From the NCBI GenBank assembly GCA_021160205.1, contig JAGHCZ010000101.1, positions 1 to 6,961 on the forward strand: a stretch of 6,961 nucleotides of DNA, given 5' to 3'. The DNA is from Nitrososphaerota archaeon. Lineage in GTDB: Archaea; Thermoproteota; Nitrososphaeria_A; Caldarchaeales; Wolframiiraptoraceae. Both the position numbers and the translations under genes were made by a program. This document shows positions 1 through 6,961 of this stretch, piece by piece. Below the pieces are notes generated by a model. The model was given only the letters and a program-made list of their open reading frames with translations. It had not been told where the DNA came from and ran no database searches. Positions within the stretch are counted from its first letter, which is position 1. Every line of letters starts with the position of its first letter.

Positions 1-204
1 TAAAATGATTTTTCTTGTTTGTTCGGGATACTGCTGTATGGCTGCGTTTAGAACTTCGTCTCCTCGATCACCCAGGTGCTCCTTAACTATCTTCAGCGCC
101 TCCTCAAAAGTGAACTCTTCTCTTTTTTCCTCATTCTTTTTAGATGCCATTAACTTCATCATTTTCTTAAGCTTCAGCGCCTTCAGCTCAAGATCATCCT
201 CCAT
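1..204 (-). CDS. Small charged helical protein, unknown function (3' part beyond window)
   Basis: Sixty-eight codons are visible from an ATG at 204-202 down to the window edge, so the C-terminus is missing. An in-frame TAA lies about 20 bases upstream and no other start lies between, so this ATG is well supported. The N-terminal half is very rich in Lys, Glu, Leu and Met (ELKALKLKKMMKLMASKK, residues 6-23), suggesting a long basic/amphipathic helix. After an acidic-basic linker comes a second helical stretch (residues 33-66) with LGDRGDE and AAIQQYPEQT. The Lys/Leu-rich start loosely resembles the N-terminal helix of archaeal PDCD5-type DNA-binding proteins, but the rest does not match that family as I know it, so I do not assign it. 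It is divergent from the winged-helix gene. A TATA-like TTAAAATC (240-233, minus strand) sits where a promoter with a few-base leader would be expected. Reading frame is well supported; function is unknown. Confidence 0.75.
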   Translation of the reverse strand, partial: MEDDLELKALKLKKMMKLMASKKNEEKREEFTFEEALKIVKEHLGDRGDEVLNAAIQQYPEQTRKIIL

Positions 205-232
205 AGCCGTGGCTAATATTAGTTAATGGCAG

Positions 233-240
233 GATTTTAA
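233..240 (-). promoter_or_regulatory. Putative TATA box of the gene at 204-1
   Basis: Minus-strand TTAAAATC, centred about 33 bases upstream of the ATG at 204. That spacing predicts transcription starting only a few bases before the start codon. Assigned on position and composition only. Confidence 0.35.
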
Positions 241-331
241 CATGATTTCGTGCTCCCCGGCCATATGGTATGACCCTTAGATTCCGCTTGTTAGAAACGC
301 GGCTAGCTGGTTTTTTCCGCCCAGTTGTAGA

Positions 332-340
332 TTTTTAATA
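332..340 (+). promoter_or_regulatory. Putative TATA box of winged-helix gene
   Basis: TTTTTAATA is centred about 26 bases upstream of the TTG start at 362, the usual archaeal TATA-to-TSS distance. Transcription should therefore begin at or next to the start codon, giving a leaderless transcript. No Shine-Dalgarno sequence precedes the start, which agrees with this. Confidence 0.5.
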
Positions 341-361
341 GACTTCGCTTATTTTTGAACG

Positions 362-649
362 TTGTCCAGCGACCGAGAGACGGTGATCCGCAGCCGAGCT
401 TTTCTCCGCAGCGTGAGGAACGTTAGAAAAGGAATACTAACGAGATCGAGGATAATAGAGCTTCTCTCAGAGAAAGCCTACACAGCCAATCAGATGGCTG
501 AAGAAGTGGGGTTAAGCGAGTCAGCAGTTCGTAGGCATCTGAAAAACATGCTTTCAGAGGGCATAGTCGAGAAAATAAGATATCGCGGAAAAGTGCTTTG
601 GAAGCTCAGCGGATACGGACAGCTCGCCTTGGAGGAGGCAATAAGCTAG
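362..649 (+). CDS. Small winged helix-turn-helix DNA-binding protein (ArsR/MarR-like fold)
   Basis: A 95-residue protein made almost entirely of one winged-helix domain. After a basic N-terminal arm (residues 8-30, many Arg) come a helix (IIELLSEK, 31-38), the helix-turn-helix (about 40-64, AEEVGLSESAVRRHLKNM) and a wing (67-84, GIVEKIRYRGKVLWKL). The pattern matches small archaeal ArsR-like regulators that bind DNA as dimers; the effector and targets cannot be read from the sequence. There are no Cys residues and no obvious metal site. The start is TTG at 362: an in-frame TGA at 356-358 lies only two codons upstream, so no longer version exists, and the TATA-like box at 332-340 places the transcript start at the codon itself. 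It is divergent from the gene at 204-1 across a 157-base region, the natural place to look for autoregulation. The stop TAG lies one base from the stop of sec61-beta on the other strand. Confidence 0.82.
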   Translation: MSSDRETVIRSRAFLRSVRNVRKGILTRSRIIELLSEKAYTANQMAEEVGLSESAVRRHLKNMLSEGIVEKIRYRGKVLWKLSGYGQLALEEAIS

Positions 650-650
650 C

Positions 651-818
651 TTAGAGGAAGATCTTGTTCATGATTATCGTCAAAGCCACCAAGGCCCCGG
701 CTAAAATCAAAATTATTTCAGGTCTAACCTTTATTCCCTTAGTTTCCTCCTCGAAGAATCTGAGGAGACCCGCAGCAGAAGCGGGCATCGGAGCCTGCCT
801 ACGCCTTCTCGCGCCCAT
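651..818 (-). CDS. Preprotein translocase subunit Sec61-beta (SecG-like)
   Basis: This 55-residue protein is the small tail-anchored subunit of the archaeal SecYE-beta translocon, which moves or inserts nascent proteins at the cytoplasmic membrane. It has the family's layout. A short basic N-terminus (GARRRRQ, residues 2-8) is followed by the signature SAAGLLRFFEEE (14-25), the GIKVRPE segment (28-34) that leads into the membrane, and one hydrophobic span (about 35-50), ending NKIFL. Length is normal for archaeal Sec61-beta. The ATG at 818 is the only start that gives the typical N-terminus; an ATG 14 bases upstream is in another frame. The gene lies 53 bases downstream of the beta-CASP nuclease gene on the same strand. 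It probably has its own promoter (ATAAAAG, 854-848), though read-through is possible. It ends one base from the convergent winged-helix gene. The plus-strand ORF over the same bases (664-921) is its antisense shadow. Confidence 0.93.
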   Translation of the reverse strand: MGARRRRQAPMPASAAGLLRFFEEETKGIKVRPEIILILAGALVALTIIMNKIFL

Positions 819-847
819 CGCTCTCGTTTCATCGATATGCTTGCCGG

Positions 848-854
848 CTTTTAT
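848..854 (-). promoter_or_regulatory. Putative TATA box of sec61-beta
   Basis: Minus-strand ATAAAAG within GAATAGATAAAAG, centred about 33 bases upstream of the ATG at 818. It lies in the 53-base gap after the nuclease stop codon, so sec61-beta may be transcribed independently with a leader of several bases. Positional evidence only. Confidence 0.4.
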
Positions 855-871
855 CTATTCGCTTCAAATTT

Positions 872-1822
872 TTACCGTAAACCGGTGGATTTTACCCCCA
901 TTTTTTGCAGATACTTCGTAAATTCTTCGACGAAGCCGTGAACTACGTAGACCTTTTTAGCCCGGCTTTCTACGACGTAGCTTAATAGCCCCGGGAAATC
1001 CGCGTGGCCGCTGAGCGGAAAGGAGGCGTCGTAGCCCGTGATTCGGTAGTGTAATGCCCATCCCGTCGCGATCGCCCATCTTAGTTTCCGCTTAGATGGA
1101 GGGTTTCTTCTCCTGCTAGAAATGTACACGCATTCCCCTTGATTGAATGCTTCGATGCCTTCCTCGGTGAAAATCGGAAGATGATCCAAGGTCAATCCAT
1201 GATCTTTGTGCTTTTCCGTAATCTTCGAAACAGTCCAGCTTGTAACCGCGGGTAACTTGAGATAATTATTAACTATGCTGATTATTTCTTGTGCCTTTCC
1301 AAGCGCATAGACTTTGAACGCCGGTATCTCTCCATTCTTGACGGTCTCCAAGATCCATCTAACTATTTCCGCATAAATTTCCTCTCTCTTCGGGAAGATG
1401 TAACGAGGTGATCCATAGGTCGATTCGATAATTAGCTCATCGGATTCTATGGCTTCAGCTCCATTTAAGAGGATGCTATCGTATGTGTTTAGATCCCCTG
1501 TGTAAACAATTTTTTCTCCTCCGCATTCTATCGAGAACTGGCTTGAGCCGAAAACATGGCCTGAAGGGTGAGCGGATATCTCTACGTCATCTATCTTCAA
1601 AGCCTCGCCATACCTGATGGTCTTTTCAACGTTTCCATCCCTAAATAATCCGAGGATACTCGCGGTTTCAGGGGTTGCTATGACCCTTGAAAGTTTTCTA
1701 GGTGAATGATCTGAATGGGCGTGCGTTATCAAGCTTACTCCACAGCCGCGCGGAGGAGAATCTAACCAAAACAAGGAATCTTTAGCCTCTACCAGGGCTC
1801 CACCCCTCCAAGCGACCCTCAT
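872..1822 (-). CDS. Beta-CASP metallo-beta-lactamase nuclease (COG1236-type, RNA/DNA processing exonuclease)
   Basis: A 316-residue member of the metallo-beta-lactamase/beta-CASP superfamily, whose members cleave or trim RNA or DNA with two zinc ions. Visible motifs are: Asp in FWLD (21, motif 1); HAHSDH (34-39, motif 2); the His in HPSGHVFGS (89, motif 3); the Asp in YTGDLN (110, motif 4); the Glu in IESTYGS (133, beta-CASP motif A); the His in LSGHAD (273, motif B); and the His in VVHG (295, motif C). All expected metal and catalytic positions are therefore present and an active enzyme is likely. It lacks the N-terminal KH domains of the roughly 630-residue archaeal CPSF1/aCPSF-type nucleases. 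It resembles the compact COG1236 type, which in bacteria is often found near DNA ligase; no ligase is visible here. Whether the substrate is RNA or DNA is open. The leader contains GGGAGGG (1842-1836) 13 bases before the ATG, longer than ideal for a Shine-Dalgarno. It is divergent from the DUF2070 gene. Confidence 0.9.
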   Translation of the reverse strand: MRVAWRGGALVEAKDSLFWLDSPPRGCGVSLITHAHSDHSPRKLSRVIATPETASILGLFRDGNVEKTIRYGEALKIDDVEISAHPSGHVFGSSQFSIECGGEKIVYTGDLNTYDSILLNGAEAIESDELIIESTYGSPRYIFPKREEIYAEIVRWILETVKNGEIPAFKVYALGKAQEIISIVNNYLKLPAVTSWTVSKITEKHKDHGLTLDHLPIFTEEGIEAFNQGECVYISSRRRNPPSKRKLRWAIATGWALHYRITGYDASFPLSGHADFPGLLSYVVESRAKKVYVVHGFVEEFTKYLQKMGVKSTGLR

Positions 1823-1897
1823 CGATCCGGAAAAACCCTCCCTATCTACGATCTAAGTCTTTCACAGTCTTTTAGACGGTTATCCCTAAATTTTATC

Positions 1898-1905
1898 TTT
1901 ATATG
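1898..1905 (+). promoter_or_regulatory. Putative TATA box of the DUF2070 gene
   Basis: TTTATATG is centred about 31 bases before the TTG start at 1933, predicting a leader of roughly five bases. It lies in the 110-base divergent region shared with the nuclease gene. The minus-strand promoter of that gene is less clear; TAAAAG near 1875-1868 is one candidate and would give a leader of about 24 bases. Confidence 0.45.
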
Positions 1906-1932
1906 GATGTTGCCCTCTGAGCGTTTGAAGGA

Positions 1933-3675
1933 TTGTCGGCTAAAAGCGCGACTTCGCGGCTATCATCGCTCTACAGTCTTCTTTGGGGCATCCCTCTACC
2001 CGGTGATCTATTAAACCTCGCTTTACTGATCTCTCTTATCGGATCGATAACGATAATTCATGCAGGCGGATACGGGGCAGCCTCGTTCATAATTATTCCC
2101 TGTTACATCTTAAGCGTCTTCGTGAATTGGTTCGTGAAAAAACTTGGCCTCGACCTCGGATCGTTAAACTTCAGGAGGATGAACCAGCTATCGATCGTAA
2201 ACATGATTTTTCTGATCATCGGGAACCTGATGTTTTCGTTCACAGGTACAGGGCTCGTCGCCTTCACGATATTCGCCACGGTAAGCGCATTCATAAGAGT
2301 GACGATTTATCTGGCTCTAGCAGGCAAACAAGCCAGAACGGCTTATCCGTTCATCGTTCTCGCGATGGCGGTTGAATCGATACCTCCGGCATGCTTCCTA
2401 AGCAACCAGCTCTACGGTTTCGCCTTCCTTAGAAGTTATGTCGTGGGCGGAGGCTTGGCCGTGATCTTAACATTAATTCTCGATAAATTAGTGTTCGTCA
2501 GCGAGATCTCCATTTGGAACCACGTGACCTCGGTTCTCGCTGTACTTCTCGACGGAAGAAACAGCTGGTTGGAGGAGATAGGTGAACAGCTCGATGAAGA
2601 GGCTGAGATTAAAATCGACATGTTTTCCTTTAGAAGAGAGGGCGAGGCGAAGCCTGAGCTAATGGTCTTAGTCCCCACATTTCATCCAGGTCCATTCAAA
2701 AATTTCGGAAGCAGCGAGTTAATGTATAGGATCGCGGATGAGCTGAAATCTATGGGAATTGAAACGATTTTCTTTAAGGGCCTCTCAAATCATGAAACAA
2801 ACGTGGTCGCGGTGAAAGATCGCGAACATATATTGAGAAAAGTCCTAGACGAGGCCAGGAGGTTTTATAACGCTCCGTATAAGTCTTCCATAAGCTCTCC
2901 CAAAATTTTCCTAGAAGACGATGCAAGGGGATTGCTGTTTTCAATATGTGGGTTAAAACTGTTATTTCTGACAAGCCATCCTATAGGAATGGAAGATATA
3001 CCGCCGTCAATAATGAAATCGATTAACGACGATCATTTGATACCCGTCGACGCGCATAACAGTTTCTCGGAAGAAGTTAGAGACTTGAGCGTAGAAACAA
3101 TAGCGGCTTTTTCGAAGATTTTAAAAAGAGCTTCTGAAACCACCTTGAACGAATCTCAGCCCATGTTCATAGGCTACGCGAGATCTCAGCTAGACCAATA
3201 TTCTCTAGAGGATGGGATCGGCGGCCTGGGCGTTTCAGCGCTGGTGATCGGCTCTGCGAGAAACCTTGCGGCCATAATAGTATTAGATGGGAATAATTGC
3301 CTCCCAACTGTAAGGGATAAAATAATTGAAAGGCTCAAGCCGCTCGGCTTTAAAGAGATAGAGGTCTTAACTACCGACACGCACATAGTAAACGGGCTGA
3401 AATTTGGAGGAAGAGGGTATCATCCGCTTGGGGAAGTCATTCCAGCCGAGGAATTAGCCGAAAAATCCCATGAAGCGGTTAAAAAGGCTCTCAGGTCGGT
3501 TCATCCCGCCGAAGTCGCATGGACTAGGTTAATCTTTAACGGCGTAAAGGTCATGTCCTCAAACTTCCTCGAAGAAGCCGCAGTTAAGGCGTATAGAAGC
3601 CTCGCGATCTTCCTAGCATTTTTCGCCACGAGCTTCTTCGCTGGGGTGATTCACGGATTACTGCTGGCCTGCTAG
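1933..3675 (+). CDS. DUF2070 / COG3356 membrane protein, predicted membrane-associated hydrolase (neutral ceramidase-like)
   Basis: A 580-residue membrane protein recognised by the DUF2070 hallmark VPTFHPGPFKNFGSSEL (247-263). About six hydrophobic spans precede residue 186 (roughly 25-42, 48-66, 87-102, 108-129, 138-155, 162-184). A large soluble domain follows (about 195-550), then one C-terminal span (557-578). The soluble part holds clustered His/Asp motifs that could bind metal: H251, SNHE with H287, VDAHNS (D373, H375), TDTHIVNG (D482, H484) and GYHPLG (H497). COG3356 has been described as a predicted membrane-associated lipid hydrolase of the neutral ceramidase superfamily; no activity is known to me. 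Loops 2-3 (Lys69, Lys70, Arg81, Arg82) and 4-5 (GKQAR) are positive. By the positive-inside rule this suggests N-terminus inside and a cytoplasmic soluble domain. The start is TTG: an in-frame TGA at 1918-1920 excludes the upstream ATG at 1903, and no other start lies between. It is 43 bases upstream of alba. Confidence 0.85.
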   Translation: MSAKSATSRLSSLYSLLWGIPLPGDLLNLALLISLIGSITIIHAGGYGAASFIIIPCYILSVFVNWFVKKLGLDLGSLNFRRMNQLSIVNMIFLIIGNLMFSFTGTGLVAFTIFATVSAFIRVTIYLALAGKQARTAYPFIVLAMAVESIPPACFLSNQLYGFAFLRSYVVGGGLAVILTLILDKLVFVSEISIWNHVTSVLAVLLDGRNSWLEEIGEQLDEEAEIKIDMFSFRREGEAKPELMVLVPTFHPGPFKNFGSSELMYRIADELKSMGIETIFFKGLSNHETNVVAVKDREHILRKVLDEARRFYNAPYKSSISSPKIFLEDDARGLLFSICGLKLLFLTSHPIGMEDIPPSIMKSINDDHLIPVDAHNSFSEEVRDLSVETIAAFSKILKRASETTLNESQPMFIGYARSQLDQYSLEDGIGGLGVSALVIGSARNLAAIIVLDGNNCLPTVRDKIIERLKPLGFKEIEVLTTDTHIVNGLKFGGRGYHPLGEVIPAEELAEKSHEAVKKALRSVHPAEVAWTRLIFNGVKVMSSNFLEEAAVKAYRSLAIFLAFFATSFFAGVIHGLLLAC

Positions 3676-3718
3676 AAAAAAATAACTACTCGTTTTCGCA
3701 GGTTTATTAGGCTTAAAC

Positions 3719-3988
3719 ATGGCAAGATCGCTGGTCATAGTGGGGAAAAAGGATGCTATGAGATATGTGACCGCGTGCGTGACCCTCTTCAATAGGGGTG
3801 AGCGCGAAATAGTTCTGAGGGCGAGGGGGAGAAACATAGAAAACTGCATAAGGGCCATCATGCTCCTCAGAAAAAGCTTCTACTCGAACCTCAGAATAAA
3901 GGAGATCAACATTGGAAGCGACAAGTTGGCGAGAGATGACGGAGGGGTCAGGTACGTGAGCTTCATCGAAGCCGTGATAACTTTATAA
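3719..3988 (+). CDS. albA: DNA/RNA-binding protein Alba
   Basis: An 89-residue Alba-family protein, an abundant archaeal chromatin protein that binds double-stranded DNA and RNA as a dimer. Conserved parts are visible: the N-terminal strand and VIVGKKDAMRYVTAC (6-20), with K10 and K11 matching K16 and K17 of Sulfolobus Alba, the DNA-contacting and acetylation-regulated lysines; IVLRARGRNIENCIRA (31-46); RKSFYSNLRIKEINIGS (51-67); and the flexible hairpin around ARDDGGVRYVS (71-81). F54 aligns with Sulfolobus Alba1 F60, which stacks at the dimer-dimer interface, so this copy looks Alba1-like. The N-terminus is about six residues shorter than in Sulfolobus, and the C-terminal basic tail is reduced to ITL. 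The ATG at 3719 starts directly before the conserved core. An A-rich stretch just after the DUF2070 stop (3676-3684) may serve as its TATA region. The aminotransferase-like gene follows after 19 bases. Confidence 0.95.
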   Translation: MARSLVIVGKKDAMRYVTACVTLFNRGEREIVLRARGRNIENCIRAIMLLRKSFYSNLRIKEINIGSDKLARDDGGVRYVSFIEAVITL

Positions 3989-3990
3989 TC
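3983..3990 (+). promoter_or_regulatory. Putative TATA box overlapping the alba stop codon
   Basis: TTATAATC includes the last coding base and the TAA stop of alba (3986-3988). It sits about 22 bases upstream of the ATG at 4008 and 31 upstream of the in-frame ATG at 4017. The downstream gene may thus have its own start point, leaderless at 4008 or with a few-base leader at 4017, besides any read-through from alba. Confidence 0.4.
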
Positions 3991-4007
3991 GCTCAACAAG
4001 TAAAATA

Positions 4008-5351
4008 ATGAGTTTCATGAAGAATCAGCTGCCCAAAATATCTAAGCCGCCTACTTCAGGCGAAGCGAAAAAGATAATCTCCCGAGACGTTGAGGTCATG
4101 TCGAGATCATATAGGCGGGCTTTTCCTCTAGTGATCAAAAGCATTCAAGGGCCGCTCGTCGAAGACATCAACGGCAACGTTTACATAGATTTCACAGCCG
4201 GGTTCGGAGCATTACCGCTCGGCGGAAGCCATCCAAAAATAATCGAAGCTTTAAGGGATCAAGTTAATGAGCTGCCATCGTATAGCTTACGGGCTGCCTA
4301 TTTCGAGAACGCGTTAAATCTAGTCGAAGAGATTTCGAAAATAGTTCCAATTAGAAGAAATGTGCGAGCGATCTTAACTAACAGCGGAGCTGAGGCCGTT
4401 GACATCGCTATGAGGGCTTTGAGGTGGCACTCCGGAAAGAACGTGGTCGTGAGTTTCATCGGAGCGTATCATGGATCGACGATCGCCACATTAGGCGTAT
4501 CATCGGATACGCGGGCAAGGAGGATCTCAACCAGAGTAAATGACGCGATTTACGCTCCAAATCCATATTGCTTTAGATGTCTCCTAGGATTAGACCCGGA
4601 GAACTGCGGGCTAAAATGCTTAGACTACCTCGAAGAACTCGCCGAAAAGCTAGCTCCAAGCGACGTCGCAGCCGTACTCACCGAACCCATTCAAGTAGAA
4701 GCGGGCGTAATCGTTCCGCCGGAGAAATATTTTGAAAAGCTCACCAGGATCCTAAAGAAAATTAAAGCTCTTTTCATCGCAGACGAGGTTTTTACGGCTC
4801 CGGCGAGAACTGGGCGATGGTTCGCGATCGACCACTGGAACGTGAACGCTGATGCCGTGTGTCTAGGCGCGCAGCTTTCCTCAGGCCTTCCACTAGGAAT
4901 ATTGCTCGCTAGGGAGGATCTTCTGGACTTAGAACCCGGAATGCACGAGCCCGACATCGCGGGTCTCCAGCTCTCGATTACGGCCGCTCTCGCTACGCTT
5001 CAAGTGATCAAGGAAGAGGGTTTGGTAGAGCGAAGCGAGAGGCTTGGGAGAATTCTTCAGAAAAGGCTCAGAGATCTTGTCGAGGAATCCGAGCTGAGTT
5101 GGAGGATTAGGGGGAGGGGAATGCTCGTCGGAATAGAGGTGGTTGGAGGAGATGAGGTGCTTGATGAAATGCTCGCTCGAAAAATAGTAGATGAGTGCTT
5201 CAGAATCGGTCTTCTAACAAGGAGAAAGGGTCCGACGGTAATCTTGACTCCTCCGCTAAACATAGAAGAAGAAGTTCTTGAAAGAGGGCTCCAACTATTC
5301 GAAGAAAAGGTTCTGGAGCTCAGCCGACGATCTCGAGCTTCCTCATCCTAA
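4008..5351 (+). CDS. Class III aminotransferase-fold protein lacking the PLP lysine (probable pseudoenzyme)
   Basis: A 447-residue fold-type I, class III aminotransferase homologue of full family length. Landmarks are retained: DFTAGFGALPLGGSHP (61-76), TNSGAEAVDIAMRAL (124-138), the cofactor-stacking GAYHGST (152-158), EPIQ (226-229), and IADEVFTAPARTGRWFA (257-273) with Asp259 for the pyridine nitrogen. The segment that normally reads like LGKAIASGLPLG here reads LGAQLSSGLPLG (286-297), putting Ala288 (GCG, 4869-4871) at the Schiff-base Lys position. Downstream, the usual HxxTFGGNP becomes HEPDIAGLQ (313-321), losing the phosphate-contacting Thr and GNP. Thus ordinary transamination is unlikely, although PLP might bind non-covalently. 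Four Cys (188, 191, 200, 204) form a CxxC-x8-CxxxC cluster of a type also found in catalytic relatives. The frame has no interruption, so this is not a decayed gene. The start is ATG 4008; ATG 4017 is possible. The last ten codons overlap rpl44e on the other strand. Confidence 0.88.
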   Translation: MSFMKNQLPKISKPPTSGEAKKIISRDVEVMSRSYRRAFPLVIKSIQGPLVEDINGNVYIDFTAGFGALPLGGSHPKIIEALRDQVNELPSYSLRAAYFENALNLVEEISKIVPIRRNVRAILTNSGAEAVDIAMRALRWHSGKNVVVSFIGAYHGSTIATLGVSSDTRARRISTRVNDAIYAPNPYCFRCLLGLDPENCGLKCLDYLEELAEKLAPSDVAAVLTEPIQVEAGVIVPPEKYFEKLTRILKKIKALFIADEVFTAPARTGRWFAIDHWNVNADAVCLGAQLSSGLPLGILLAREDLLDLEPGMHEPDIAGLQLSITAALATLQVIKEEGLVERSERLGRILQKRLRDLVEESELSWRIRGRGMLVGIEVVGGDEVLDEMLARKIVDECFRIGLLTRRKGPTVILTPPLNIEEEVLERGLQLFEEKVLELSRRSRASSS

Positions 5352-5598
5352 TGCCTTTCTTGTGAATGATGTAGCCGCATTCGTTGCATATCAGCTTAAG
5401 CGTCTGCTTCTGCGTCGTCTTCGACTTCTTCTTCTGAATCGGATACTTCTGGCCTCCATATCCATGGAGCTCTCGCTCGTGGTGCCTCGCCCCCCTCGCC
5501 AAAGCCCTATCCTTACCCTTCTTATACAAAGTAACCTTATGCTGCGTGTATTTCCGGCACCGCGGACAATACGTATTAATCTTCCCCGGGATCTTCAA
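5320..5598 (-). CDS. rpl44e: Large-subunit ribosomal protein eL42 (L44e)
   Basis: A 92-residue zinc-ribbon protein of the 50S subunit, located near the E site and tRNA 3' end in archaeal and eukaryotic ribosomes. The family start MKIPGKINTYCPRC is clear. The zinc ribbon is C11-P-R-C14 paired with C71-N-E-C74. The basic central region carries HHERELHGYGGQKYPIQKKK (39-58), typical of L44e, with KTTQK (60-64). The start is TTG at 5598-5596, fixed by the conserved N-terminus. A TATA-like CTTAAATATA (5630-5621) centred about 28 bases upstream implies a leader of at most a few bases. In many archaea rpl44e precedes rps27e in one operon. Here it is on the opposite strand and divergent from it, and its 3' end overlaps the convergent aminotransferase-like gene by 32 bases. 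Confidence 0.97.
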   Translation of the reverse strand: MKIPGKINTYCPRCRKYTQHKVTLYKKGKDRALARGARHHERELHGYGGQKYPIQKKKSKTTQKQTLKLICNECGYIIHKKGIRMRKLEIVG

Positions 5599-5782
5599 TC
5601 CACCGCTCTCTTCCCCGTCTTATATTTAAGGAATATCTGGAGAGATTGAGCAGCGGATCTCCACATTTTTACCTGCAAGATAAAAAACAGAAATTACGAA
5701 TCCCCCCGGCTCCGGTTTTATCGGCGGAAATAAAGGTTAATAAGTAAATTTGTGAGAGGGCTATTTTGCTGGTGACGTTGAG
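5599..5782. promoter_or_regulatory. Divergent promoter region between rpl44e and rps27e
   Basis: These 184 bases hold no gene I can support. On the minus strand, CTTAAATATA (5630-5621) is the likely rpl44e TATA box. On the plus strand, two A/T-rich candidates lie upstream of rps27e: AAATAAAGG (5728-5736) and TTAATAAGTAAATTT (5737-5751). The latter better fits a start point near 5766-5770 with a short leader. A C/G-rich block (5702-5715) separates the two sides. No tRNA, C/D-box RNA or long hairpin was recognised. Confidence 0.5.
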
Positions 5783-5983
5783 GTGGAAGTTGAGTGGGAG
5801 AAGCTTATTCCGAAGCCTAGGTCCTGTTTTCTTCTAGTTCAGTGCAACGAATGCGGTCATAAACAGGTCGTATTTGATCACGCGAAGATCGAGGTCAAAT
5901 GCCAGGTTTGCGGCGCAGCTTTGGCCGTGCCCCGAGGAGGTAAGGCCAAGATCTTGGGAAGGGTGCTTGAAGCGCTGAGCTGA
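5783..5983 (+). CDS. rps27e: Small-subunit ribosomal protein eS27 (S27e)
   Basis: A 66-residue zinc-finger protein of the archaeal 30S subunit. FLLVQCNECGHKQVVFDHA (16-34) is the S27e core. The zinc ligands are C21, C24, C40 and C43, the last pair in KCQVCGAALAVPRGGKA (39-55). The C-terminus ILGRVLEAL is family-like. The start is GTG at 5783: an in-frame stop at 5753-5755 bounds the frame and no other start codon lies between. It is the first gene of the visible translation cluster, followed after 66 bases by aIF2-alpha. That gene has its own TATA-like box, so the two may be transcribed partly independently. Confidence 0.95.
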   Translation: MEVEWEKLIPKPRSCFLLVQCNECGHKQVVFDHAKIEVKCQVCGAALAVPRGGKAKILGRVLEALS

Positions 5984-5999
5984 GAGTATCAATTCTCAG
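5980..5999 (+). terminator. Stem-loop over the rps27e stop codon, possible attenuator or weak terminator
   Basis: CTGAGAGT (5980-5987) pairs with ATTCTCAG (5992-5999) through seven Watson-Crick pairs and one G-U pair, with a four-base loop. The stem includes the TGA stop codon (5981-5983). A short T tract (6010-6013) follows. Archaeal termination depends mainly on U tracts, and this one is short, so read-through, RNA stabilisation or processing is equally possible. Confidence 0.35.
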
Positions 6000-6016
6000 A
6001 GGTTTCCGCTTTTCAG

Positions 6017-6024
6017 TTTAAATA
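6017..6024 (+). promoter_or_regulatory. Putative TATA box of the aIF2-alpha gene
   Basis: TTTAAATA is centred about 29 bases upstream of the ATG at 6050, predicting a transcript starting about three bases before the start codon. It lies in the 66-base gap after rps27e, suggesting separate transcription of aIF2-alpha and Nop10. Confidence 0.55.
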
Positions 6025-6049
6025 CGTCCTGCTAGAATGATTCCTCGGA

Positions 6050-6838
6050 ATGTCCGAATTCGCCGAGGTTGAGGCGCCTGAAGCCGGCGACCTAGTGGTC
6101 GGGGTGGTCAAGAGAATAGAGAGATACGGCGCGTACATAGATCTCCTCGAGTATCCGGGGTGGGGAGGGCTCGTCCACATCTCAGAGATCTCGCTTAAGT
6201 GGGTTAGAAATATAAAGGATTATCTGAGGGAGAATCAGCGGGAAATATTCAAAGTTCTCAGAGTTGATAAGGCATCTAGGCAAGTGGACGTCTCTCTTCG
6301 AAGGGTCTCGCAGAAGGAGAGAGAATGGAAGATACTCGAATGGAAAAGGAAACAGAAGGTTAGAAGGATCCTAAGCATTCTTGCCGAGAGGTCGGGTAAG
6401 CCCGAAGAGGAGTTTCGAAAAAAGATAGTTGAGCCCGCTCTAAAAAGAAATCTAAGCTTATATGATGTTTTCTTAGAGGTCGTTGAAAAGGACAAGCTTC
6501 CGAAGTGGATGAGGCTCGATGAGGATGAGGCTCGCCTCTTGATCCAACTCGTCAAACAAGAGATCAAGATAAAACGAGCGACCGTGAAGAAAACGCTGTT
6601 TATGAGCGTTCCTTTGGGAAACGGCGTTGAAGTAATTAAAAAGGCGGCTGAGCGCGGTCTACAAATAGCTAGAAAAGATGGGGCTGTATCTATAACTACC
6701 GTGGGGGCTCCGAAATATCTTTTAAGGGTTGAAGCTGAGGACGAAGAAAAGGCTAAGCAGCTTATCGACAAAATTTCTTCAGAATGCATTAAAATAATTA
6801 GAGAAGCCGGAGGAAAAGCCGAGCTCATGGAAGAGTGA
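6050..6838 (+). CDS. eif2a: Translation initiation factor aIF2, alpha subunit
   Basis: A 262-residue protein of normal family length; with aIF2-beta and aIF2-gamma it delivers initiator Met-tRNA to the small subunit. The S1/OB domain spans about 11-86 (GDLVVGVVKRIERYGAYIDL at 13-32, GLVHISEIS at 40-48, VDVSLRRVS at 79-87). A helical domain runs about 88-172 (EREWKILEWKRKQKVRRIL) and the C-terminal alpha/beta domain that docks on aIF2-gamma spans about 175-258 (IKIKRATVKKT, PKYLLRVEAEDEEKAKQLI). Ser48 (TCG, 6191-6193) lies at the position of eukaryotic eIF2-alpha Ser51, but the following RRRIRS of eukaryotes reads LKWVRN. The start ATG 6050 is preceded by a TATA-like box at 6017-6024. Nop10 begins four bases after the stop, so the two are almost certainly co-transcribed. 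This gene order is conserved in archaea. Confidence 0.97.
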   Translation: MSEFAEVEAPEAGDLVVGVVKRIERYGAYIDLLEYPGWGGLVHISEISLKWVRNIKDYLRENQREIFKVLRVDKASRQVDVSLRRVSQKEREWKILEWKRKQKVRRILSILAERSGKPEEEFRKKIVEPALKRNLSLYDVFLEVVEKDKLPKWMRLDEDEARLLIQLVKQEIKIKRATVKKTLFMSVPLGNGVEVIKKAAERGLQIARKDGAVSITTVGAPKYLLRVEAEDEEKAKQLIDKISSECIKIIREAGGKAELMEE

Positions 6839-6842
6839 AAAC

Positions 6843-6961
6843 ATGCCAGGCCTGCTCAACAAATGCACGAAATGTGGGAGATATACTCTTCGAAAGGATT
6901 CGTGTCCGATCTGCGGAGCGCCTGTGAAATCGGCTCATCCTCCAAGCATTTCGCTAAAGCA
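6843..6961 (+). CDS. nop10: Ribosome biogenesis protein Nop10 (partial, cut at window end)
   Basis: Thirty-nine full codons of Nop10 are visible. It is a small subunit of H/ACA ribonucleoprotein particles, which guide pseudouridylation of rRNA together with Cbf5, Gar1 and L7Ae. The zinc ribbon is complete: C8-T-K-C11 (KCTKCGRYTL) and C21-P-I-C24 (SCPICGAPV), followed by AHPPSISLK (31-39), where archaeal Nop10 usually has HPPRFSP. The ATG at 6843 lies four bases after the aIF2-alpha stop. GTGA (6835-6838), overlapping that stop, may act as a short Shine-Dalgarno element for coupled translation. The missing part should be about 20 residues, judging from the family's usual length of about 60. 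Confidence 0.95.
   Translation, partial: MPGLLNKCTKCGRYTLRKDSCPICGAPVKSAHPPSISLK

Follow-up and report, generated by a model that had tools for sequence, protein, structure and literature searches.

A class III aminotransferase homologue without the Schiff-base lysine

We analysed a stretch of 6,961 nucleotides from a Nitrososphaerota archaeon of the Caldarchaeales (contig JAGHCZ010000101.1, positions 1 to 6,961; hereafter the window). It contains an open reading frame (ORF) for a homologue of class III aminotransferases, which lies between an Alba gene and genes of translation (Table 1). The ORF begins with ATG, and its product of 447 amino acids matched the PF00202 (Aminotran_3) profile with 258.9 bits (E 8.9e-77) over residues 35-433, equivalent to profile positions 6-401 of 403, thus clearing the gathering cut-off of 30.5 bits across nearly the whole profile. 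This bears out an earlier reading of the letters alone (the sequence-only reading), which had described a full-length homologue, intact over 447 codons, that lacks the Lys forming the Schiff base with pyridoxal 5'-phosphate (PLP).

Table 1. Positions of genes and sequence features in the window
Feature	Position	Strand	Basis
ArsR-type winged helix-turn-helix protein, conserved neighbour	362..649	+	profile match, synteny
Metallo-beta-lactamase-fold protein (RMMBL), conserved neighbour	872..1822	-	profile match, synteny
DUF2070 membrane protein, often found beside Alba-3 within the order	1933..3675	+	PF09843
Third Alba paralogue (Alba-3), directly upstream of the aminotransferase homologue, 19 bp gap	3719..3988	+	PF01918, synteny, paralogue tree
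Class III aminotransferase homologue of 447 aa without Lys, a probable pseudo-aminotransferase	4008..5351	+	ORF, PF00202, clade trees, fold
Four-Cys cluster C188, C191, C200, C204 (CxxC-x8-C-x3-C)	4569..4619	+	alignment
Codons 259-262 (D-E-V-F): Asp259 kept, Gln262 to Phe	4782..4793	+	alignment
LGAQLSSGLPLG, family motif carrying the Schiff-base Lys, residues 286-297	4863..4898	+	sequence, alignments
Codon 316, Thr to Asp	4953..4955	+	alignment
Codon 412, Arg to Ile	5241..5243	+	alignment
Ribosomal protein L44e, convergent; 3' end overlaps 3' end of the aminotransferase homologue by 32 bp	5320..5598	-	PF00935
Ribosomal protein S27e	5783..5983	+	PF01667
Translation initiation factor 2 alpha	6050..6838	+	PF07541

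The family motif that carries the Lys corresponds to LGAQLSSGLPLG. Codon 288 is GCG (Ala) at 4869-4871, and alignment with 66 Lys-bearing matches was gap-free at the Lys column, in agreement with the sequence-only reading, whose coordinates for the motif (4860-4896) were off by 2-3 bases. Solved structures gave the same result, with Lys at the position aligned to Ala288 in all four alignments (9wqz, 9wrf, 7vno and 3oks). A change to GCG requires two substitutions from AAG and three from AAA, in line with the minimum of two named earlier. Judged by the Schiff-base Lys, the ORF therefore falls outside the active class III aminotransferases (Ala288; Lys in none of 58 clade rows, described below).

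The AlphaFold2 model displayed an ordinary class III fold (predicted local distance difference test score 93). The closest known systems, alike in length, were the class III enzymes of the acetylornithine-aminotransferase family (NF004426) and an Ala/Ser racemase (PDB 9wqz, 9wr1), to which the predicted fold is similar with a template modelling score of 0.91 (against 9wr1_B). The SGxEA, HG, EPIQ, DE and SGLPLG landmarks are common, in most rows, to the clade and the acetylornithine-aminotransferase-family enzymes, as are four Cys. Unlike these enzymes, the window protein lacks the Schiff-base Lys, the Gln and the carboxylate Arg of the active site. It scored 364.6 bits with NCBIfam NF004426 (PRK05769), below the curated cut-off of 552; L122, a Lys-bearing relative, scored 638.

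The Lys is absent throughout an archaeal clade under purifying selection

Among the best 120 of 4,728 relatives, the Lys was absent in 54 and present in 66. The 54 (Pro 25, Ala 11, Glu 11, Ser 6 and Asp 1 at the Lys column) were the closest of these 120 and included every protein with at least 40 per cent identity. Because so many of the best relatives share the lack and rank closest, the absence of Lys is more than chance. A further search from the Geocrenenecus-type branch added eight members, all with Ser at the Lys column. Together the clade comprised 62 database clusters (membership assigned by trees for part and by similarity for the remainder), all without Lys. The sequence-only reading had proposed to search close relatives for the same loss, naming homologues that all have the Lys as a sign of decay or error; the opposite was found, as every clade member identified was without it.

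At the genome level, the gene was found in 14 of the 44 genomes of the order that includes Wolframiiraptor sinensis. All 14 were without Lys (Ala, Glu, Pro, Ser or Asn), two of them judged on contig-end pieces, and the clade matches contained no internal stops. Carriers with a genus name were Ca. Wolframiiraptor (sp., allenii, gerlachensis and sinensis), Ca. Benthortus lauensis and Ca. Geocrenenecus dongiae, all Ca. Wolframiiraptoraceae of the Nitrososphaerota; the remaining carriers have broad names only. The window most likely derives from this family as well. In a tree of 80 rows, the 36 Lys-less rows formed a single group with 100/100 support, whose stem measured 0.69 changes per site. For the window clade, this grouping also held in trees with 49 and 59 rows.

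Selection on the Lys-less gene is clearly purifying. The ratio of nonsynonymous to synonymous substitution rates (dN/dS) was 0.07-0.19 by NG86 for 10 pairs of Lys-less genes and 0.09-0.22 by YN00 for nine of these pairs (each covering 100 or more codons at no less than 66 per cent identity; sequences were shared between pairs, and two were gene pieces). For four locus pairs, dN/dS was 0.07-0.18 for the aminotransferase homologue and 0.03-0.13 for the neighbouring genes, the former evolving faster than all its neighbours in two of the four. Recent decay, a sequencing error or a misassembly is thus hardly credible as the origin of the Lys-less motif. One relative (P0128) has a motif degraded further, to DEV-RTG, and the gene is missing at one intact locus (G037), as decay would predict, but Lys is missing equally from all 62 clusters and all 14 genomes, and the lack of internal stops and the low dN/dS likewise speak against it. 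Assembly error and decay were ruled out on the clade-wide Lys absence, purifying selection and synteny.

Relaxation of the cofactor pocket

The active site was compared between 58 Lys-less rows (the query, 47 of P0002-P0049, P0050, P0051 and eight loci; near-copies and fragments removed, P0121-P0128 left out) and a contrast set of 75 Lys-bearing rows. Roles of pocket residues follow E. coli GABA aminotransferase. Lys occupied the Lys column in 0/58 Lys-less versus 74/75 Lys-bearing rows. Gln262, which we take to be the O3' Gln, and Arg412, presumably the Arg binding the substrate carboxylate, were each found in 0/58 versus 73/75 rows, with Phe and Ile, respectively, in the query. Thr316, assumed to contact the phosphate from the other subunit, was retained in 24/58 versus 74/75 rows (Asp in the query), and Gly127 in 37/58 versus 75/75. 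Asp259, presumably the Asp facing the pyridine nitrogen (ring-N), was kept in the query and in 40/58 rows, with Asn in the other 18, versus 74/75. By these four residues taken together (Asp, Gln, Thr and Arg), as by the Lys, the window protein falls outside the active enzymes. Near-invariant in the Lys-less rows were Ser126 (57), Glu129 (58), His155 (57), Glu260 (58) and Arg267 (58). The former Lys position holds Pro, Glu, Ala, Ser, Asp or Asn, and thus no new residue has become fixed there. Nor was there a column of invariant Lys among the 58 clade rows that might supply a replacement, the possibility raised by the sequence-only reading; the best candidates, K44 (55/58) and K434 (56/58), presumably lie outside the PLP site of the family.

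For a comparison of site entropy, thinning to below 80 per cent identity left 30 Lys-less and 50 Lys-bearing rows, with mean pairwise identities of 0.50 and 0.51, respectively. Across the 11 pocket sites besides Lys, the median entropy gain was 1.74 bits, versus 0.00 elsewhere (p = 5e-6). The small C-terminal domain (residues 321-440) had gained more constraint than residues 53-320 (p = 1.7e-6). Outside the pocket, each residue of the four-Cys cluster was present in 58/58 Lys-less rows and in 67-71 of the 75 Lys-bearing rows. The cluster is probably a metal knuckle, and would then represent a metal site that has outlived the active site.

Rebuilding of the old pocket for catalysis independent of PLP could account for clade-wide substitutions around the site (Gly for H73, Asn for D55 and Ala for G264) and for the presence of P265 and W271 in 58/58 rows. 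We regard this as improbable, since residues vary freely in the former Lys column and at other pocket sites and the newly conserved sites fall more in the small domain (14/27, p = 0.009). Moreover, P0128, which stands outside the 58 rows, is without P265 and R267.

A somewhat better case, still an unlikely one, can be made for non-covalent binding of PLP or pyridoxamine 5'-phosphate, with Lys-free chemistry or a role as a sensor of cofactor or amino acids. The near-invariance of S126, E129, H155 and E260 fits such binding, as do Asp259 and the SGAEA loop of the query. Judging by its title, PDB entry 5m4d shows a related racemase that carries the K241A mutation and an external aldimine, so that a Lys-less site can hold the cofactor. 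However, the phosphate-loop Gly127 is lost in 21/58 rows, the ring-N Asp is replaced in 18/58 and the carboxylate Arg is gone from 58/58. The pocket sites also relax as a group, and the residues that are kept may be structural.

A conserved place behind Alba-3

Synteny was analysed in 15 regions with the Lys-less gene (L143-L157, from 14 genomes). An Alba gene lay directly upstream in 12/12 regions whose contig extends that far, and L44e was convergent downstream in 13/13. DUF2070 preceded Alba in 11/12 regions, with none found in the 1.47 kb upstream available for L151. The Alba genes adjoining the Lys-less gene formed a separate paralogue group in 12/12 regions (100/99, on few columns). For comparison, 29 further regions with third or extra Alba genes (L188-L216, from 27 genomes of the order) had DUF2070 beside Alba in 22, and none of the 29 had an aminotransferase directly behind Alba.

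In two other genomes (G033 and G034), a Lys-bearing aminotransferase with the usual motifs (L122 and L123) immediately follows an Alba gene that falls in the Alba-3 group. This arrangement suggests that the enzyme form occupied the Alba-3 locus first, an order which the gene trees neither show nor reject: L122 and L123 were not sister to the Lys-less clade in the best trees, and the approximately unbiased (AU) test with them joined gave p = 0.404.

Alba-3 is the first candidate partner of the Lys-less protein, being its neighbour in every checkable Lys-less region, but a shared neighbourhood is no proof of contact. That a class III aminotransferase became a non-enzymatic partner of Alba-3, taken as a specialised paralogue that binds chromatin or RNA, in the Caldarchaeales, as a component of the archaeal nucleoid or of a ribonucleoprotein, is a speculative proposal that we hold to be doubtful. 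If true, such a component would have been built from a dead vitamin-B6 enzyme. Nucleic-acid binding by charge was unsupported, the median net charge being -4 for Lys-less versus -2 for Lys-bearing rows and the isoelectric point 6.0 versus 6.6.

The convergent genes for the aminotransferase homologue and L44e share 32 bp at their 3' ends (5320-5351). Many relatives have a conserved SRxSRASS-like tail, which likely results from coding antisense to the end of L44e. As a candidate promoter of the aminotransferase homologue, a TATA-like stretch, TTTATAAT, is present upstream of the start codon in the window and overlaps the end of the Alba gene; of nine other loci checked by eye, some had a similar stretch and others had none. 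With TIGR04122, a model for ligase-associated exonucleases that has a cut-off of 325, the metallo-beta-lactamase protein further upstream (872-1822, minus strand) reached 183 bits.

A probable lineage-specific pseudo-aminotransferase

Class III enzymes work as dimers whose subunits share active sites, an architecture in which the Lys-less protein could pair with a Lys-bearing paralogue as the non-catalytic subunit of a heterodimer. The precedent is LCB1 of serine palmitoyltransferase, likewise a homologue of PLP enzymes that is without the Lys and retained as a working subunit; according to PMC3794620, hLCB1 is without key catalytic residues including the Lys, and its partner is hLCB2. Additional Lys-bearing class III paralogues do occur in six carriers (G002, G004 and G007-G010). 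In contrast, few other PF00202 matches were found in G001, G003, G005, G006 and G011, and the five paralogues typed (two in G003, one each in G001, G005 and G006) were matched best by LysJ/ArgD or HemL models. There was no second class III match within the 15 Lys-less regions and no dedicated partner common to all carriers, several of which hold further paralogues besides the five typed. LCB1 differs in this respect, having a close Lys-bearing partner subunit, and it belongs to another family. Because the typed paralogues are LysJ/ArgD or HemL and the cross-subunit Thr is often gone (missing in 34/58 rows), such help is very improbable.

Taken together, the clade-wide absence of Lys, the single tree group, purifying selection, relaxation of the pocket and the fixed locus lead us to regard the protein as a lineage-specific pseudo-aminotransferase of Ca. 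Wolframiiraptoraceae, which is the explanation we favor with reasonable though incomplete confidence, probably with a binding, structural or regulatory role. The low dN/dS and the conserved synteny support the maintained, non-transaminase protein proposed by the sequence-only reading. The ancestor would have been an ordinary Lys-bearing class III aminotransferase of the acetylornithine-aminotransferase-family type. The Schiff-base Lys would have been lost, most simply once on the clade stem, along with other contacts to cofactor and substrate, while the fold and the four-Cys knuckle were retained and constraint tightened on the small C-terminal domain. The protein is predicted to form no internal aldimine and to perform no transamination. 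Through its retained scaffold and the more constrained small domain, it may act instead by binding a small ligand, a nucleic acid or a protein, for which Alba-3 is a candidate, or as a structural or regulatory subunit.

Several observations weigh against a pseudo-aminotransferase. Of nine pocket residues counted besides Lys, the query retains six (G127, Y154, H155, E226, E231 and D259), and 20/58 clade rows retain seven; thus, cofactor binding without a Schiff base is possible, above all in those 20 rows. The claim of the sequence-only reading that other family motifs are kept holds for these six and fails for Gln262, Thr316 and Arg412, which the query has lost. The entropy tests assume that sites are independent and take no account of the tree, and their list of pocket residues was drawn from GABA aminotransferase; a hypergeometric count of pocket sites among the lost conserved sites was weak (p = 0.048; p = 0.077 without Lys). 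The Lys-bearing L122 and L123 resemble the query as closely (0.41-0.42 of aligned columns) as do far Lys-less rows (0.39-0.40). Finally, G037 (L188) has Alba-3 and L44e ~100 bp apart with no aminotransferase between them. Its Alba-3 falls inside the Geocrenenecus set, and the absence therefore looks like secondary loss, indicating that the gene can be lost.

To our knowledge, few old and maintained pseudoenzymes of PLP enzymes are known. Here, a whole family of heat-loving archaea retains one at a constant genomic position, surrounded by genes of translation and chromatin, which makes a new non-catalytic role for the class III fold likely. No description of a Lys-less class III aminotransferase family was found among the titles and abstracts listed from the open-licence literature, most subscription journals being outside its scope. 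In PMC7694997, such wording refers to made variants (K386A and others) of a fused enzyme, and 'class III' in PMC9309667 denotes the BCAT class under another naming. Pseudoenzymes of PLP folds are known in kind, LCB1 being one (PMC3794620). Source names of clade members include '4-aminobutyrate aminotransferase' (P0041) and 'PLP-dependent enzyme' (P0011, P0028), and such names would add a false step to metabolic models. One carrier, W. gerlachensis, is in cultivation according to PMC9246946, so that the protein and its partners can be sought.

A second family with Gly in place of Lys

Alignment of P0136 with 117 new relatives identified Gly at the Lys column in 14 of the 118 rows, Glu in one and Lys in 103. 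The Gly family (P0136, P0227-P0232, P0246, P0249, P0275, P0286, P0293, P0311 and P0312) has likewise lost the Lys in the equivalent motif and is of the same subfamily as the window protein. It differs in forming a separate branch: the 13 Gly rows placed in the tree were a single group (100/99) inside Lys-bearing proteins, some of which carry the names Bathyarchaeota or Bathyarchaeia. An alignment of 13 Gly rows showed both the Gly and the ring-N Asp to be invariant. Some members keep much of the PLP pocket: P0286, P0311 and P0312 also retain Arg412, Thr316 and the phosphate loop.

A host of the Gly family was not found in a class-wide search that started from a Bathyarchaeum genome (256 genomes, of which 125 had matches at 1e-150) and covered only the best match per genome in most genomes; 30 loci from that search, L217, L218 and two motif-script genes (six more regions) all had Lys. 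The best tree contained three changes between Lys and no Lys, most simply three losses. Starred branches separated the window clade from the Gly family, and a tree joining them in a single clade was 22.4 log-likelihood units worse, although the AU test did not formally reject it (p = 0.163). The Gly family may represent a similar change at an earlier stage, or a genuine use of PLP without the Lys. P0324, with Glu at the Lys position, stands apart from both Lys-less groups in the tree.
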